This document shows, in pieces, positions 1 through 6,196 of a stretch of 64,000 bases of DNA. This stretch comes from Jejuia pallidilutea (GTDB lineage: Bacteria; Bacteroidota; Bacteroidia; Flavobacteriales; Flavobacteriaceae), in NCBI RefSeq assembly GCF_002973595.1, contig NZ_PVEO01000001.1, forward strand, positions 434,001 to 498,000, in the 5' to 3' direction. The translations under genes and the position numbers were made by a program. The notes under the pieces were generated by a model, which had not been told where the DNA came from, searched no databases, and saw only the letters and a program-made list of their open reading frames with translations. How positions within the stretch are numbered: position 1 is the first letter of the stretch; each line of letters starts with the position of its first letter.

Positions 1-384
1 AATTTTCGCAAAATATTTAATGTCATCAACGGTTATTGATTTACCATTAATTTCACGATTAAAAGATGCTGCATAATCTCTCATTATGGCTCTGGTATAT
101 TTTTTTAAATCTTCAGAATTATTCTGTAGTTTTTTTAATTCATGTTTACTTGGACTAACTGTTATTGAATAAAATTTTGGTTCTTTCTTTTTGAGTTTAG
201 CCGTATTGCCATCGATTTCTTTTACCACGTCTTTGGCTTGAATTTCATCTCCATATTGATTAAAAAAATGCTCCACATCTTCTTGCTCCAAACCTTGATT
301 TTCTTTCTCCAGATACTCAGCAAAATCCGCAGCACTTTGTGAATAATCCCCTCCTAATTTTTGAGCTGTGATTGTGATATACAT
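1..384 (-). CDS. MobB-like relaxase/mobilization protein (DUF5712), 5' part only
   Basis: The reading frame starts at an ATG on the minus strand (382-384) and stays open to the window edge, giving 128 residues without a stop, so this is the N-terminal part of a longer gene. The protein begins MYITITAQKLGGDYSQSAAD and contains KEPKFYSITVSPSKHELKKL, the pattern I know from the Bacteroidota DUF5712/MobB mobilization proteins, which act with a BfmA/BtgA protein at oriT. The expected partner gene lies immediately upstream, with 4 bases between its stop and this start, so the two are probably co-translated. The relaxase assignment rests on recognition of the family and on this pairing; the catalytic tyrosine and histidine motifs would need the rest of the gene. 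Confidence 0.75.
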   Translation of the reverse strand, partial: MYITITAQKLGGDYSQSAADFAEYLEKENQGLEQEDVEHFFNQYGDEIQAKDVVKEIDGNTAKLKKKEPKFYSITVSPSKHELKKLQNNSEDLKKYTRAIMRDYAASFNREINGKSITVDDIKYFAKI

Positions 385-388
385 AATA

Positions 389-841
389 TTATAATTGATT
401 ATTTGAATCATTTTTTTCTACAATTAGTACTTCCTTCTCTTCAACCTCTTTCTCTAAAATCAACCTTTCTTGCTTTGGTTCAAACTCCATAAACAAAGAT
501 TGCAACATTGCAGTTGTGGGTTTATCATGGTTCTTTTCTATGTCTTTTATTATAGCGATTACAGCATTTATTCGCTTCTTAATTTCACTCTCCAATGTTT
601 GCATATTTGGTCCCAAAGTTTCATTTGGGGAAATGCCATTGTCCTCAAAAAAGTCCAGCATCAGAAGCAAAGTCATCGATTGTGATTTAGATAATTTTTT
701 ACAAAACACTCGAAAACGCTCTGCTACTGAAGTTTTAATCCCGAGCTTCTCAAATCGCTCTTTTTCATATCCTTTATCCATTTTTTCTGAAAAAATTTGT
801 TGTTTTGATTGGGCTGCGAGGATTTTTTCTGAAAAAACCAT
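389..841 (-). CDS. BfmA/BtgA family mobilization protein
   Basis: A 150-residue basic and helical protein containing YEKERFEKLGIKTSVAERFR and FCKKLSKSQSMTLLLMLDFF, which resemble the DNA-binding ribbon-helix-helix-like part of BfmA/BtgA mobilization proteins from Bacteroides mobilizable elements. Such proteins bind oriT and help the relaxase. The start is uncertain. The longest frame starts at 841, but residue 21 (ATG at 779-781) begins MDKGYEKERF, where recognisable similarity starts, and the 20 extra residues are encoded by an imperfect DNA duplication (FSEK occurs twice). I favour 781. It forms a two-gene unit with the mobB-like gene. Confidence 0.72.
   Translation of the reverse strand: MVFSEKILAAQSKQQIFSEKMDKGYEKERFEKLGIKTSVAERFRVFCKKLSKSQSMTLLLMLDFFEDNGISPNETLGPNMQTLESEIKKRINAVIAIIKDIEKNHDKPTTAMLQSLFMEFEPKQERLILEKEVEEKEVLIVEKNDSNNQL
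781..837. promoter_or_regulatory. Two identical 15-bp palindromes at the mobilization gene start
   Basis: The sequence TTTTTTCTGAAAAAA occurs at 781-795 and again at 823-837. Each copy is a perfect palindrome around a central T, and the copies are 42 bp apart start to start, about four helical turns. The first copy overlaps the ATG at 781. This is the layout of a paired operator that could autoregulate the mobilization operon. If translation really starts at 841, the repeats would instead lie inside the coding region. Confidence 0.45.
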
Positions 842-900: not shown

Positions 901-976
901 TTGAAAAAACTGAAAATCGAAACATCGCGCTAGCGTGTTACCCTCTTGCTATTCCTTTTCGTCCAGCTCGCTGGAC
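901..976. other. Candidate oriT region with inverted repeats
   Basis: This gene-free stretch just upstream of the mobilization genes holds a perfect 8-bp palindrome CGCTAGCG (928-935) and a perfect 7-bp inverted repeat GTCCAGC/GCTGGAC with a 2-base loop (961-976), separated by a pyrimidine-rich tract (CCCTCTTGCTATTCCTTTTC). Relaxase targets usually lie next to the mob genes and combine an inverted repeat with a nick site, so this is the best oriT candidate in the window. I cannot name the nick position. Confidence 0.4.
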
Positions 977-1828: not shown

Positions 1829-2182
1829 TTATTCAGTAGCGTTTTCGCCTTTAATTCCTAAAAGCAAGATTTCATCCACGACCACTTCGGTAACGTATCT
1901 TTTTTCTCCGGCTTTGGTTTCATAAGAGCGTGAAGTTAATTTTCCCTCTAGTGCTACTTCTTTTCCTTTGCCTACAAATTTCTCTACGATTTCGGCAATC
2001 TTTCCCCATGCTACAATATTGTGCCATTGGGTGTTCGTCACTTTTTCTCCATTGGAATCTTTATAAAATTCATTGGTTGCGATTGAAAATTTTGCAACTT
2101 TCTTTCCACTTTCAAGGTTTGTGATTTCTGGCTCGTTTCCTACGTTGCCAATTAACTGTACTTTGTTTTTTAGAGTACTCAT
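1829..2182 (-). CDS. ssb: Single-stranded DNA-binding protein, short element-borne form
   Basis: A 117-residue protein that is one OB fold. Recognisable SSB landmarks are NKVQLIGNVGNEPEI at the N-terminus, the T-x-W-H-x-I-V-A-W-G-K-x-A-E-I stretch near residue 60, and G-K-E-V-A-L-E-G-K-L-T-S-R-S-Y-E-T. It coats single-stranded DNA, presumably during conjugative transfer or replication of the element. It stops soon after the OB fold (ending GENATE) and lacks the long linker and acidic DDDIPF-type tip through which housekeeping SSBs recruit partners, which is usual for plasmid or ICE SSBs in this phylum. Confidence 0.9.
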   Translation of the reverse strand: MSTLKNKVQLIGNVGNEPEITNLESGKKVAKFSIATNEFYKDSNGEKVTNTQWHNIVAWGKIAEIVEKFVGKGKEVALEGKLTSRSYETKAGEKRYVTEVVVDEILLLGIKGENATE

Positions 2183-2475: not shown

Positions 2476-2608
2476 GTTGTTATTTTGCTGTCAAAAAAAG
2501 GTATGACGGTGTTGGATTACGGAAGTGATTCTAAAGTCTTTGTGAAATACAAAATCATAGGAAGTGGAACACAATGACAAATACATTTTTCCTTATTTGG
2601 CGGACTTG

Positions 2609-2703
2609 ATCCGCACTTTTTACTTGGAATAAAGTGTTCCTTTCCGTCCCGATAGCTATCGGGACGGAAAGGTTTAACGGAATGGAAAGTAAAAAGTGCG
2701 GAT
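2609..2703. repeat. Large nested palindrome
   Basis: The core at 2639-2672 is a perfect 34-bp palindrome (half-site CCTTTCCGTCCCGATAG). It is enclosed by exact 17-bp arms, ATCCGCACTTTTTACTT at 2609-2625 and its complement at 2687-2703. The inner motif CCCGATAGCTATCGGG is one I remember as very frequent in marine flavobacterial genomes. Here it may be a transcription terminator, a REP-like element, or part of an element replication or partition site. The rest of 2475-2785 holds no gene that I can see. Confidence 0.6.
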
Positions 2704-2785
2704 TGGGTCCAAGACTTTGATAATGAAGCGCTTTTACCGGAATGAAGCTTTCGGCGGAATGTAGGGGAATGGGCTGAGTGGGATG

Positions 2786-2817
2786 ATTTTTACGAGTTTA
2801 CCTCTGCGCTGATATTG
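2786..2817 (-). promoter_or_regulatory. Third copy of the conserved upstream block
   Basis: Here the TTTTTACGAGTTTACC and ATATTG blocks match the distal ends of the two leader repeats at 4841-4871 and 5931-5960 with similar internal spacing. On the minus strand it reads CAATAT, about ten bases, then GGTAAACTCGTAAAAA. Occurring three times on the same strand in non-coding DNA of the element suggests a shared promoter or regulator site. No long gene follows this copy; the nearest minus-strand frame is the small one at 2225. Confidence 0.4.
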
Positions 2818-2860
2818 ATTGAAAAGGTTCTACTTACTCATTTTTACGAAGGACTATATA

Positions 2861-2910: not shown

Positions 2911-4707
2911 CTAGTCGTTTAATTCCTGAATTTTCGCTTCAAGATTTCCTATGCGCTCTTTCAAACGTACTTCACGCTTGTTTCTTTCTTCTACATATTC
3001 CTTTTCAATATTGGCAATTTTGGTTTTATAATAGCCTTGCATCGCATTGTAGAATGAAATGTTCGTTAAGTTATTAACGTGATTGCTTTCTCCAAAATGT
3101 ACTTGCTTGGTAAGGATATACCGAATCAACTTATAAAAGGTTTCCTTTTTGAAATTCTTTTTGAAGTTCTCGACAGTTTCTACATCAGTCTTCTTGGATG
3201 TGTTGCATAATAATTTCAAAAAGTGTTTTTGTCGACCTACATAGTCCACATTGTTTTCAAATAAAGTTAATGAAAAAGCCACCATTTCATCTACCGAAAG
3301 TGCTTTCTTCTTTTCAATATAATCGGTTTCACGAATCATCTGAACTATGTCCTCAAATTCCCTATTGTGCTCGATGTGTCGCTTTCGTGTTTCTCTTTCG
3401 TTGATTTTAACAATTTGCTCTTCTGGCGAACACTCTGCCATTTTTCTATTTGCCAACGGTTCCGAATATGTAGAATTTTCAGTTTTTGAATCTTCAATTA
3501 GCTTCACAAAAACTGCTTTGTGAACATATGTTTTCGGATGAAACATAATACCTTTTACGAATCCATTTTCTTTTGCGGAATTATACACTTCCAATTCTTC
3601 CTTGTAATTATCAACCGATTCTTCTAGTTCAGCTTTCAACTCATCTTCAGAATAGTCGTAATGTTGGTATTCTGTCTTAATGGCTTCTATTGTAGGCTCA
3701 ATCGGCTCTTCGATTATTTCGACATCATCCAGAAGATAGACTTTCAATCCCTTTTTTTCCAATTGCGATATAATGAGCTGATTATTGTCGTCAGTTGCCC
3801 AATATTTACGAATTTCAGGAATCAACAACACATTCTCCTTCTTCGATTTCTCAATTAAGTTCAAAAATGACTTGTTTTTCTTTGTTTCATAACAGGCTGA
3901 TTTTGTACACACCATTTTACCATCGCCAAACAAATTACCTTGATTAGCTGCGTTGAACAGACAGGTTGTACAGGCACCAGCTTTTGTAATCAATTTTTCA
4001 TCGGATACATTGAAAGGTGCATTCTCCAAATCATAGGTCTGGTTTTTAATCATCTGATTGATTTGATGTGCATTAAAATCTTCTCCCATGGTTTCCAGCA
4101 TCATTTGCTGTTCCCCTGGCTCGAAAAGCGCAACACCTACACCTAATGAAATTGTCATGTCGCCATTACGGACAAAGAATTTAAAACCTTCAATTAGACC
4201 TGCCAATTTTAAACGTTGCCTTACAAAATTTTCCGTTCTTCCCAACCGTTTAGAAATCTCTATTGGCGCATATTTTTCGCTCAGGAATGCTACAGCTTCG
4301 GCTTCTTCAGTAGGTTCAACATCCTGTCTTTGCAGATTTTCGATAATTTGAATTTCCAGAACATCATTATTATCGTATTCCCTAACGATACCCGGAATGG
4401 TTTTCTTTTTTGCCAATTTACTTGCACGATACCTGCGCTCTCCCATGACAATGATGTAATCCTTTCCAGATTTTCGGACCGTAATAGGTTGCAGGACACC
4501 GTGTTCTTCGATGCTTTCAGAAAGTTGTTTGAGCGCATCCTCATTAAAGGATTTTCTTGGTTGCATTGCATCTGGAATAATCCTTCCGATAGGTAGCTCT
4601 TGAACTTGAAGTCGAATGGCTTGTTGTGTCAACTTCTTTTTAACTTCATTTTTAACGGTGGTTGTTGCCTTTCCGTTTTTACTTGCAGTACTCGCTTTTG
4701 TTGTCAT
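2911..4707 (-). CDS. ParB/RepB/Spo0J-family partition-like protein
   Basis: A 598-residue cytosolic protein. After a basic tail comes a ParB N-terminal domain (about residues 35-125) with Q-P-R-K-S-F, S-I-x-E-H-G-V-L-Q-P-I-T-V-R and the CTP-binding-type motif GERRYRA. Next is a helix-turn-helix (about 150-175, ISKRLGRTENFVRQRLKL). A cysteine cluster (C-T-T-C-L-F-N and C-x-K-S-A-C-Y, about 250-275) may bind zinc. A long acidic then coiled-coil C-terminal half makes it much longer than chromosomal ParB. On Bacteroidota ICEs and plasmids such proteins are linked to element maintenance or gene regulation. No ParA is visible next to it. The start is fixed by the leader repeat that ends exactly at this ATG. 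Confidence 0.82.
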   Translation of the reverse strand: MTTKASTASKNGKATTTVKNEVKKKLTQQAIRLQVQELPIGRIIPDAMQPRKSFNEDALKQLSESIEEHGVLQPITVRKSGKDYIIVMGERRYRASKLAKKKTIPGIVREYDNNDVLEIQIIENLQRQDVEPTEEAEAVAFLSEKYAPIEISKRLGRTENFVRQRLKLAGLIEGFKFFVRNGDMTISLGVGVALFEPGEQQMMLETMGEDFNAHQINQMIKNQTYDLENAPFNVSDEKLITKAGACTTCLFNAANQGNLFGDGKMVCTKSACYETKKNKSFLNLIEKSKKENVLLIPEIRKYWATDDNNQLIISQLEKKGLKVYLLDDVEIIEEPIEPTIEAIKTEYQHYDYSEDELKAELEESVDNYKEELEVYNSAKENGFVKGIMFHPKTYVHKAVFVKLIEDSKTENSTYSEPLANRKMAECSPEEQIVKINERETRKRHIEHNREFEDIVQMIRETDYIEKKKALSVDEMVAFSLTLFENNVDYVGRQKHFLKLLCNTSKKTDVETVENFKKNFKKETFYKLIRYILTKQVHFGESNHVNNLTNISFYNAMQGYYKTKIANIEKEYVEERNKREVRLKERIGNLEAKIQELND

Positions 4708-4871
4708 AATACTTAAATTTTAGGTTAAACAATATTTTTGCAGAACCCAAACGGAAGGCAAAATTTCTGCTCAAAAGGAAACGGAATAAATGAGTTGTGG
4801 GCGAAGGGTTGGCTTTATGCCGTAGTCTTTTGATGATAATATTTTGCGAGTTTATCTTTGTACCAATATTG
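4708..4871 (-). promoter_or_regulatory. Leader repeat copy A upstream of parB-like gene
   Basis: This stretch is a near-copy of 5799-5960. Shared blocks, on the plus strand, include AAACAATATTT, CAAACGGAAG, CTCAAAAGGAAACGGAATAA, TTGGCTTTATGCCGTAGTC and TTTTRCGAGTTTA. Next to the start codon a hairpin can form with stem TTTTGC (4736-4741) and GCAAAA (4758-4763) around a conserved loop. In copy B the stem sequence differs but pairing is kept. That supports a transcribed 5' leader with a selected RNA structure rather than a plain protein-binding site. Confidence 0.6.
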
Positions 4872-4911
4872 ATATAGATATCTCTTTTTTAACAGAAATA
4901 AAGTATGAATC

Positions 4912-4941
4912 AAAAAAAACTCTAGTTTTAAGGTACTAGAG
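4912..4941 (-). terminator. Rho-independent terminator of the DUF932 gene
   Basis: CTCTAGT (4920-4926) and ACTAGAG (4935-4941) form a 7-bp stem. Read on the minus strand it is followed by eight T residues (complement of 4912-4919). It lies 20 bases after the gene's stop. Confidence 0.8.
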
Positions 4942-4961
4942 CAACCTTTGATTATCAGGTT

Positions 4962-5798
4962 TTAAACCATTTCATATATTTCATTGAATAGTTTTTTATC
5001 CCACTTTTCTTGTTGTGAAAATGTCTTCTTCAATGTATTGTGTAACATGGAATTGAAGGCATTGTAACCTAACCATAAATTAGGTTCCTCATTTAGCAAT
5101 AGTGCTTCGTAGTTCAAGGTTTCAAGAACTTCACGGGATTTCTTTGAAGGCTCTTCGTTTTTATCACTACATTCATATCTGAACAGTTTTGATTTATCCA
5201 AAATTGCTTTTACAAATTCTTTGGTGTCGATGATTTTGAAATCCTTCATCTTTTCAAATTTCTTGACGATGGTATAAAATTCATTGTTCAGGAATTTATC
5301 GAACAAACCATTCATCCTTGGCATGATAAGCTCTGTATTATTTTTGCTGTGCTTTATGGAAAACTCAATTGCTGCTTGTGAAACGTGTAGTCCATTTGAG
5401 CATACTTTCCTGTAAAAACCAAAATGTCCGGAAGTCTTTTCACTACCATCATACGAGTTTTTAAAACGTAGCATGGGCAGTATTAAATCTTCTTTGTTCT
5501 TTAATTTGAACTGGTTGCTATCTTCAATGATAAAGTCTATTATGAAAGACCTATCATTTCTATTAACGCTTCGTTTGTGATAATTTAGTCCAGCATCCAA
5601 AAGCATCTGTTCTGCTTTCTTGAAGAACAATTGATTGGGAATATGGCCATAACTATTCGATACCACATTCACGATTTTACCATTTGATATAATGGCATTT
5701 TCAAGTCCTCTACGAGATTCCATCTGCGTGAGGCTTTTTAAGGATTTCATTTCTGAAGAAACAAAAATCTCATCTTGTTGTAAATTACTTAAATACAT
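4962..5798 (-). CDS. DUF932 (phage/plasmid-like TIGR03299-type) protein
   Basis: A 278-residue cytosolic protein. Motifs such as S-x-x-Y-G-H-I-P-N near residue 50 and S-G-H-F-G-F-Y-R-K-V-C-S-N-G-L-H-V near residue 135 fit the DUF932 phage/plasmid-like family, whose members are common on mobile elements and have no settled biochemical function. The open frame extends 8 codons further to 5822, but I chose the ATG at 5798 because the duplicated leader ends there exactly as it does at the parB-like start. Its own leader and terminator indicate a single-gene transcript. Confidence 0.7.
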   Translation of the reverse strand: MYLSNLQQDEIFVSSEMKSLKSLTQMESRRGLENAIISNGKIVNVVSNSYGHIPNQLFFKKAEQMLLDAGLNYHKRSVNRNDRSFIIDFIIEDSNQFKLKNKEDLILPMLRFKNSYDGSEKTSGHFGFYRKVCSNGLHVSQAAIEFSIKHSKNNTELIMPRMNGLFDKFLNNEFYTIVKKFEKMKDFKIIDTKEFVKAILDKSKLFRYECSDKNEEPSKKSREVLETLNYEALLLNEEPNLWLGYNAFNSMLHNTLKKTFSQQEKWDKKLFNEIYEMV

Positions 5799-5960
5799 AA
5801 TATTTGATTTTAGATTAAACAATATTTAAGCTAGAACCAAACGGAAGCTAAAATCTCAGCTCAAAAGGAAACGGAATAAATAAGTAGCGGACGAAGCGTT
5901 GGCTTTATGCCGTAGTCTTTTGATGGGTGTATTTTACGAGTTTAACTTGCGGTTATATTG
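5799..5960 (-). promoter_or_regulatory. Leader repeat copy B upstream of DUF932 gene
   Basis: This is the second copy of the roughly 160-bp leader (see 4708-4871). Its hairpin uses AGCT (5829-5832) with AGCT (5846-5849), extended after one A-A mismatch by ATTT/AAAT (5824-5827 and 5851-5854), around a loop conserved with copy A. The remaining bases to the uxaA stop (5961-6196) hold no gene. They contain a 12-bp direct repeat TATTCAATGATT at 6035-6046 and 6106-6117, and this stretch is the junction between element backbone and metabolic genes. Confidence 0.6.
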
Positions 5961-6196
5961 TATGAATAACTCTCTTTTTTAGCGGACGCTATTTCAAAGT
6001 TTGATATTAGAAACAAAAAAATCCCAACTCTACATATTCAATGATTCGGTTAATAATAATCAGACGAAAATGTAAAGTTTTTTATACTTCTATGATTTTT
6101 TATCCTATTCAATGATTAACGTACGTAATAAAATTGCATAGACCTTTCAAATGCTTGAGTGGTTTTTCTTTTTGGTAAAAGAAACTATAATTCTTC

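Follow-up and report, generated by a model that had tools for sequence, protein, structure and literature searches.

Repeated leaders in an integrated conjugative element of Jejuia pallidilutea as probable Frpo-like single-stranded DNA promoters

Two unrelated genes in a 64,000-nt stretch of the Jejuia pallidilutea genome (contig NZ_PVEO01000001.1, positions 434,001 to 498,000; hereafter the window) share a leader, which raises the question of what this leader does and on which strand. The first ~6 kb of the window are one end of an integrated conjugative element (ICE), whose integrase lies at contig position 409895, whose transfer genes lie at contig 423683-429925, and whose coupling protein gene, DUF5712 relaxase-like gene and small overlapping gene without Pfam match occupy contig 431750-434841. 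The DUF6876, SSB, ParB-like and DUF932 genes come next on the minus strand, toward the end of the element (Table 1). DUF5712 is classed in Pfam as a family of unknown function; from the gene order and an HxH motif we take it to be a relaxase. The sequence-only reading of this DNA had noticed the same leader just before the ATG of both the parB-like and the DUF932 gene, and blastn bears this out: the two direct copies (window 4717-4858 and 5807-5948) are 142 nt long, 85% identical (E 5e-44) and each directly precedes an ATG. For the DUF932 gene, the ATG at 5798 agrees with the leader boundary and with the relatives, and the TTG at 5822 given in the mechanical ORF list is likely wrong as a start.

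Table 1. Features of the element end, in window coordinates
Feature	Position	Strand	Remark
Relaxase-like gene (DUF5712), 5' part	1..411	-	rest lies beyond the window
Gene before and overlapping the relaxase gene	389..841	-	without Pfam match; putative mobilisation accessory, judged from its position
Conserved non-coding core, oriT candidate	918..955		between putative leading genes and mobilisation genes
SSB gene of the putative leading region	1829..2182	-	no full rod directly before it here
Third rod, truncated basal piece	2788..2823	+	between parB and ssb genes
ParB-like gene (ParB_N, PF02195)	2911..4707	-	Pfam
Rod 1, leader of ParB-like gene	4725..4873	+	predicted fold as single-stranded + strand (template of the gene)
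Rod 1 basal helix, 5' arm CAATATT	4730..4736	+	partner 4865-4871
Rod 1 predicted transcription start	4736	-	5' UTR ~29 nt; inferred from box position and the 4-5 nt spacing of PMC6847099
Rod 1 apical stem ACGGAATAAA / TTTATGCCGT	4781..4823	+	strongly conserved, with variable loop
Rod 1 -33 box TTTTG	4828..4832	+	20 nt before -7 box
Rod 1 -7 box TATCTTTG	4853..4860	+	3' arm
Rod 1 basal helix, 3' arm AATATTG	4865..4871	+	
DUF932 gene (PF06067)	4962..5798	-	Pfam, ORF
Rod 2, leader of DUF932 gene	5815..5962	+	
Rod 2 predicted transcription start	5825	-	5' UTR ~27 nt; inferred
Rod 2 -33 box TTTTG	5918..5922	+	20 nt before -7 box
Rod 2 -7 box TAACTTGC	5943..5950	+	imperfect

The leader belongs to a repeat family. 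A further copy on contig 4 of the same genome heads a second ParB gene, and the place of the truncated third rod is taken by a full copy between the same genes in two near relatives (G008 and G011), followed in G011 by an ORF of the ~52-aa type and a 181-aa gene. Remnants of the two genes that follow this third copy in the relatives were not found in the window (no match better than E 0.6). An inverted repeat with 24-nt arms, 88% complementary and spaced by 61 nt (window 2602-2710), adjoins the truncated rod and is possibly a small insertion. A 181-bp leader query matches 4 of 12 genomes of the genus and, in the host family, 73 of the 397 genomes sampled, some of them partially (E up to 0.001); at most two candidates per genome were scored in the family scan, so the copy count is a lower bound. 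The collection of 97 hits in 79 loci gave 80 copies after overlaps were merged, 73 of them distinct. As named by a simple rule on the longest ORF start, the genes after the 80 copies are ParB-like in 38 cases, DUF932 in 17 (5 behind a small ORF), a ~135-aa protein without Pfam match in 7, a second ParB type in 4 and a 52-aa ORF in 2, and the remaining 12 copies precede other genes, some again ParB-like. The leader ends at the ATG in most copies, with an ORF offset of -3 to -5 in the majority. Insertion-sequence ends and integron attC sites were considered as further readings of the repeats; the attC sites, which are likewise folded single strands, were set aside because the repeats sit before genes.

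The sequence-only reading had placed the structure of the leader in a small hairpin near the ATG, paired as TTTTGC/GCAAAA in one copy and AGCT/AGCT in the other, and had taken the difference for compensatory change. Compensatory change is real, but it is found in a much longer rod across the whole leader and not in this hairpin. Placed by copy 1 on an alignment of 44 copies, the small hairpin has 50.4% of its cells paired and 2 cells changed on both sides, and 466 of 500 shuffles are at least as good; some of its bases are shared with the rod, where they are paired otherwise. The whole leader forms one long imperfect rod whose two halves are the two halves of the leader, that is, an imperfect duplex made from one strand. 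Across 44 of the 73 distinct copies, 92.0% of the cells in 37 rod pairs are paired, against 43-47% when the partners are slid by 1-3 columns, and 12 of the 37 pairs (39 cells) show changes in both partners, where shuffles give 3.3 pairs and 9.7 cells; these controls are flattered, since the rod was drawn from the same, related sequences on which it was counted. The 44-row alignment leaves out four partial or aberrant copies (L061, L063, L075 and L078), rows with N and rows at least 95% identical to a kept one. RNAalifold, which was given the alignment only, predicted 27 pairs, 12 with double changes; apart from three additional pairs rich in double changes, these belong to the inner portion of the rod, and neither basal helix is among them. 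The basal helix has 89.9% of its cells paired in the 44 copies, is mostly invariant and shows no double changes, the helix above it has 70.5% of its cells paired, and the basal helix is missing from the minimum-energy fold of copy 1 alone.

Folded as single-stranded DNA, copy 2 is more stable than its shuffles (z -3.4), copy 1 is not significantly so (z -1.2) and the contig-4 copy is intermediate (z -1.9). The wobble cells of the 44-copy alignment, 34 G-T and 38 A-C, do not tell the folding strand apart. Among the 54 distant and 55 flavobacterial copies (both sets are described below), the better fold is that of the antisense strand in 52 and 49, respectively, and this strand has more G-T pairs; G-T counts were rejected as a sign of the folding strand, because swapped controls differ alike and the effect is mostly one of base composition. 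If the leader were instead the 5' UTR of an mRNA started upstream, folding there as a cis-regulatory RNA that controls the downstream gene, the covariation would be equally expected, and the sense RNA fold of copy 1 does beat its shuffles (z -3.7), that of copy 2 less so (z -1.5).

The promoter boxes speak for the template strand. At a fixed place in the antisense 3' arm, TA is present in all 73 distinct copies, TAHHTT in 71 and the full TAnnTTTG in 27, the full -7 box being missing in the other 46; TTTTG lies 20 nt before it in 57 of 73. The two free positions hardly ever hold G (1 and 0 of the 73 copies), which fits the TAHHTTTG of Flavobacterium johnsoniae. These -7 counts are anchored on the alignment; an automatic scan mostly took a TATTTT stretch in the neighbouring helix. 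In F. johnsoniae the start lies 4-5 nt beyond the TAHHTTTG box and the mean leader is 33 nt long (PMC6847099), and the Bacteroides promoter is described as TTTG/TAnnTTTG (PMC7366714). The antisense boxes therefore look like a Bacteroidota -33/-7 promoter, as judged from their sequence. They share the -7 box with the sigma-ABfr promoters of Bacteroidota (PMC6847099), with the difference that both promoter strands would here be two arms of one strand. In duplex DNA this -7 box points away from the gene, and folding of the strand turns it toward the gene, out of the rod base.

On the sense strand, a perfect TAHHTTTG occurs in 2 of 80 upstream 120-mers, so the perfect box is not enriched there, and in the distant copies it occurs in 0 of 52 within 75 nt and in 2 of 52 at 75-250 nt, where shuffles give 0.4 and 2.0; this comparison concerns the perfect box, and a degenerate promoter may lie there. 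Together with a Bacteroidota box on the opposite strand within the rod, which recurs in the distant copies, and with a conservation that begins at the rod itself, this makes a 5'-UTR regulatory RNA unlikely in our view. Rfam has no family at gathering score in the window, and among seven loci it found one tRNA, all other matches being below the gathering scores; the small hairpin proposed for such an RNA fails, as described above. What holds of the cis-regulatory RNA put forward by the sequence-only reading is a structured cis element with compensatory change, common to unrelated genes and without Rfam match, and what finds no support is that the structure acts in the mRNA. A promoter inside the rod, with its start ~29 nt ahead of the ATG, would leave most of the rod out of the mRNA, and transcription is predicted to begin downstream of the small hairpin, an outcome which that reading itself had counted against its proposal.

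Copies in distant genomes allow the rod and the box to be seen in sequences that did not define them. With the covariance model, weaker relatives were detected in another family of the order (5 genomes) and in three other families of the class (9 genomes). A strict apical-stem pattern matches 17 of 395 genomes of the class, with 0 hits for the backward control, and at least 119 stretches in the named-genome collection, whose titles include Winogradskyella, Chryseobacterium, Sphingobacterium, Pedobacter, Sediminibacterium and Segetibacter, besides a few odd metagenome-bin labels. The genes behind distant copies include those for SSB and RadC-like proteins (Pfam on ORF samples; the rest by ORF starts). 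From 80 of the at least 119 named-genome loci (L121-L221; 39 unused) and the other apical-stem finds, 109 distinct copies were taken, for which 75 and 80 nt of flank were required and identical flanks were dropped. They were split into 55 flavobacterial and 54 distant copies by three flavobacterial stem strings and not by taxonomy, so that at least one flavobacterial copy (L167, Mesonia) is among the 54. The copies were selected on the apical stem alone, so that their flanks can serve as a fair test. The apical stem itself is strongly conserved in the distant copies while the rest of the rod changes, and it is perhaps a protein site; this conservation is partly by choice, because the copies were found by that stem.

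TAHHTTTG is present on the antisense upstream arm in 36 of the 54 distant copies (shuffled expectation 1.9) and missing there in 18, and it occurs in none of the 54 on the sense strand upstream or on either strand downstream. The copies are partly redundant, forming 34 groups at 70% flank identity, 20 of which have the box. Moreover, 40 of the 54 copies fold better with their own flanks than with any of 20 swapped partners, the means being -37.5 and -25.1 kcal/mol. For the 55 flavobacterial copies with 4 swaps the result is uninformative (-20.0 for own and -19.2 for swapped flanks), and it is near-flat as near-identical copies would give. In the minimum-energy folds of the 36 copies with the box, box positions 2-6 are unpaired in 81-97% and the neighbours are mostly paired, so that the box lies in a bubble. 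Measured from the apical core, the partner of the predicted start lies at 34-38 nt in 29 of the 36 and at 31 or 40-41 nt in a further 4; in the other 3 it is not in the gene-side flank. Along the other arm the distance ranges from 21 to 54 nt. The predicted start thus pairs at a near-fixed distance from the apical core, which would place the apical stem just upstream of -33. These results also bear on an ordinary duplex operator or promoter cassette that was copied before several genes, with the pairing as a by-product of inverted-repeat protein sites. Parts of the leader are indeed highly conserved in sequence, as such a cassette would be, but both sides of the rod change without loss of pairing, swapping the flanks of the distant copies weakens the fold considerably, and a duplex promoter would face away from the gene; we regard this explanation as very improbable.

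The position of the relaxase gene was compared with the rods at 113 places, 12 weak or partial places having been left out. A DUF5712 match lies within 60 kb on the same contig for 85 of the 113 copies, and in all 85 (57 different genes) it is downstream and on the same strand; 28 copies have none in the 60-kb range, and a number of the matches have stop codons inside. Among 23 distant genomes, DUF5712 was not found, a weak result as control genomes gave no signal, and a relaxase of PF03432 lies within 60 kb of the rod in six (G433, G493, G596, G643, G933 and G1019), three of which are of one genus; its orientation, counted by eye, agrees in 6 of 6. In the other 17, it agrees in one at 69 kb, lies more than 100 kb away on the contig in three, and is not on the contig in 13. 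In addition, a conserved non-coding core that separates the mobilisation genes from the putative leading genes (Table 1) is common to other elements of the family, including the second element of this genome, and is probably the oriT. Relaxase genes are typically in the lagging region (PMC11541004), from which we infer that the rods are in the leading region and that the strand which folds and serves as template is the transferred strand.

Comparable leaders are known from plasmids. The F plasmid has the near-identical Frpo1 and Frpo2, in which the folding of a single strand restores promoter boxes and which early expression in the recipient requires (PMC9849209); Frpo and its ColIb-P9 homologues are non-coding repeats of the leading region, 92% identical and ~5 kb apart, and precede different early genes, SSB among them (PMC9849209, PMC11541004). 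The leaders described here are similar in their anatomy, as repeats before different genes with a stem-loop that would rebuild promoter boxes from one strand. As in Frpo and the ssi sites, a single strand is computed to fold into a stem-loop, weakly so for window copy 1 alone, and host promoter boxes facing the gene would be rebuilt, as judged by sequence and predicted fold. The candidates of Samuel et al. 2024 (PMC11541004) were likewise a predicted hairpin plus a promoter consensus before leading genes; new ones were sought there with TTGACA and TATAAT, unlike the boxes found here. The boxes here are -33/-7 TTTG/TAHHTTTG and not -35/-10, the rod is long with the -7 box in a bubble and with a strongly conserved apical stem, and the copies come from chromosomal Bacteroidota contigs. 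The leader has no match among 72,556 plasmid records (blastn, E 1e-5), nor has one distant copy (E 0.01). There was also no blastn match of the leader to phages.

Considering these results, we think it probable that the leaders are Frpo-like single-stranded DNA promoters of Bacteroidota conjugative elements. In transfer, the incoming strand would be the + strand of the window, which is the template of these genes, and its ~150-nt leader would fold into the rod, with the 3' arm as non-template promoter strand (-33 TTTTG, -7 TAHHTTTG), the 5' arm as template strand and the -7 box kept in the unpaired bubble. From a start point in the basal helix, ~29 nt ahead of the ATG, the host RNA polymerase would run out onto the single-stranded template, by which the ParB-like, DUF932 and sister proteins, and SSB and RadC-like proteins in distant relatives, would be made before the second strand exists. 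Once it is made, the rod would be gone, the box would face away from the gene, and the genes would be silent until the next transfer.

The same anatomy would also serve a single-strand initiation site, at which polymerase makes a primer for the complementary strand at the hairpin and gene expression is secondary; the M13 origin is the comparison for such a primer, and the strongly conserved apical stem could be a protein site. Many unrelated genes, however, have a rod shortly before their ATG, and some elements carry two or three rods. Neither an adjoining gene nor repetition would be required of a primer site, so we consider initiation as the main function quite unlikely. It is compatible with the promoter reading and does not exclude it; the title of the Frpo paper reportedly names both functions, promoter and second-strand initiation.

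An IMG/VR contig of 7734 bp classed as viral (L140) has two rods, which head a RadC gene and a DUF6943 gene; this hints at the use of rods by elements other than ICEs. In three loci titled Ferruginibacter, Flavipsychrobacter and Chitinophagaceae (L156, L217 and L147; Pfam was run on the first), a compact unit comprises a rod, a DUF6943-type gene and a convergent 249-aa gene that has no Pfam match, with an additional rod and a ~77-aa ORF in some; it may be a small mobile unit with such promoters. Single-stranded promoters as such are already known. In a literature search, with most subscription papers and preprints outside its range, no paper joining them with Bacteroidota was found, and the main text of PMC11541004 and of PMC12826799 has no word beginning 'bacteroid'. 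A wider proposal, on which we are evenly divided, is that the rods are single-stranded DNA promoters of a separate class, found across the phylum, built for the Bacteroidota sigma factor and without sequence relation to Frpo, with a pre-melted -7 box in the bubble of a covarying rod, with the apical stem ACGGAATAAA/TTTATGCCGT just upstream of -33 as a dedicated recognition module, perhaps for some further factor, and with a distribution among several kinds of mobile elements, not only ICEs. If the rods are single-stranded promoters, transcription from incoming single strands also occurs beyond the plasmids with E. coli-type boxes, in a separate form in Bacteroidota, where the polymerase uses different boxes; searches based on the E. 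coli consensus would not detect it. How the Bacteroidota sigma factor reads a pre-melted promoter could then be seen, as a natural test case, on the bubble-held -7 box. Furthermore, the rods would mark the transferred strand and candidate early genes, such as those for establishment and anti-defence, and would be a tool for finding early genes in these elements.
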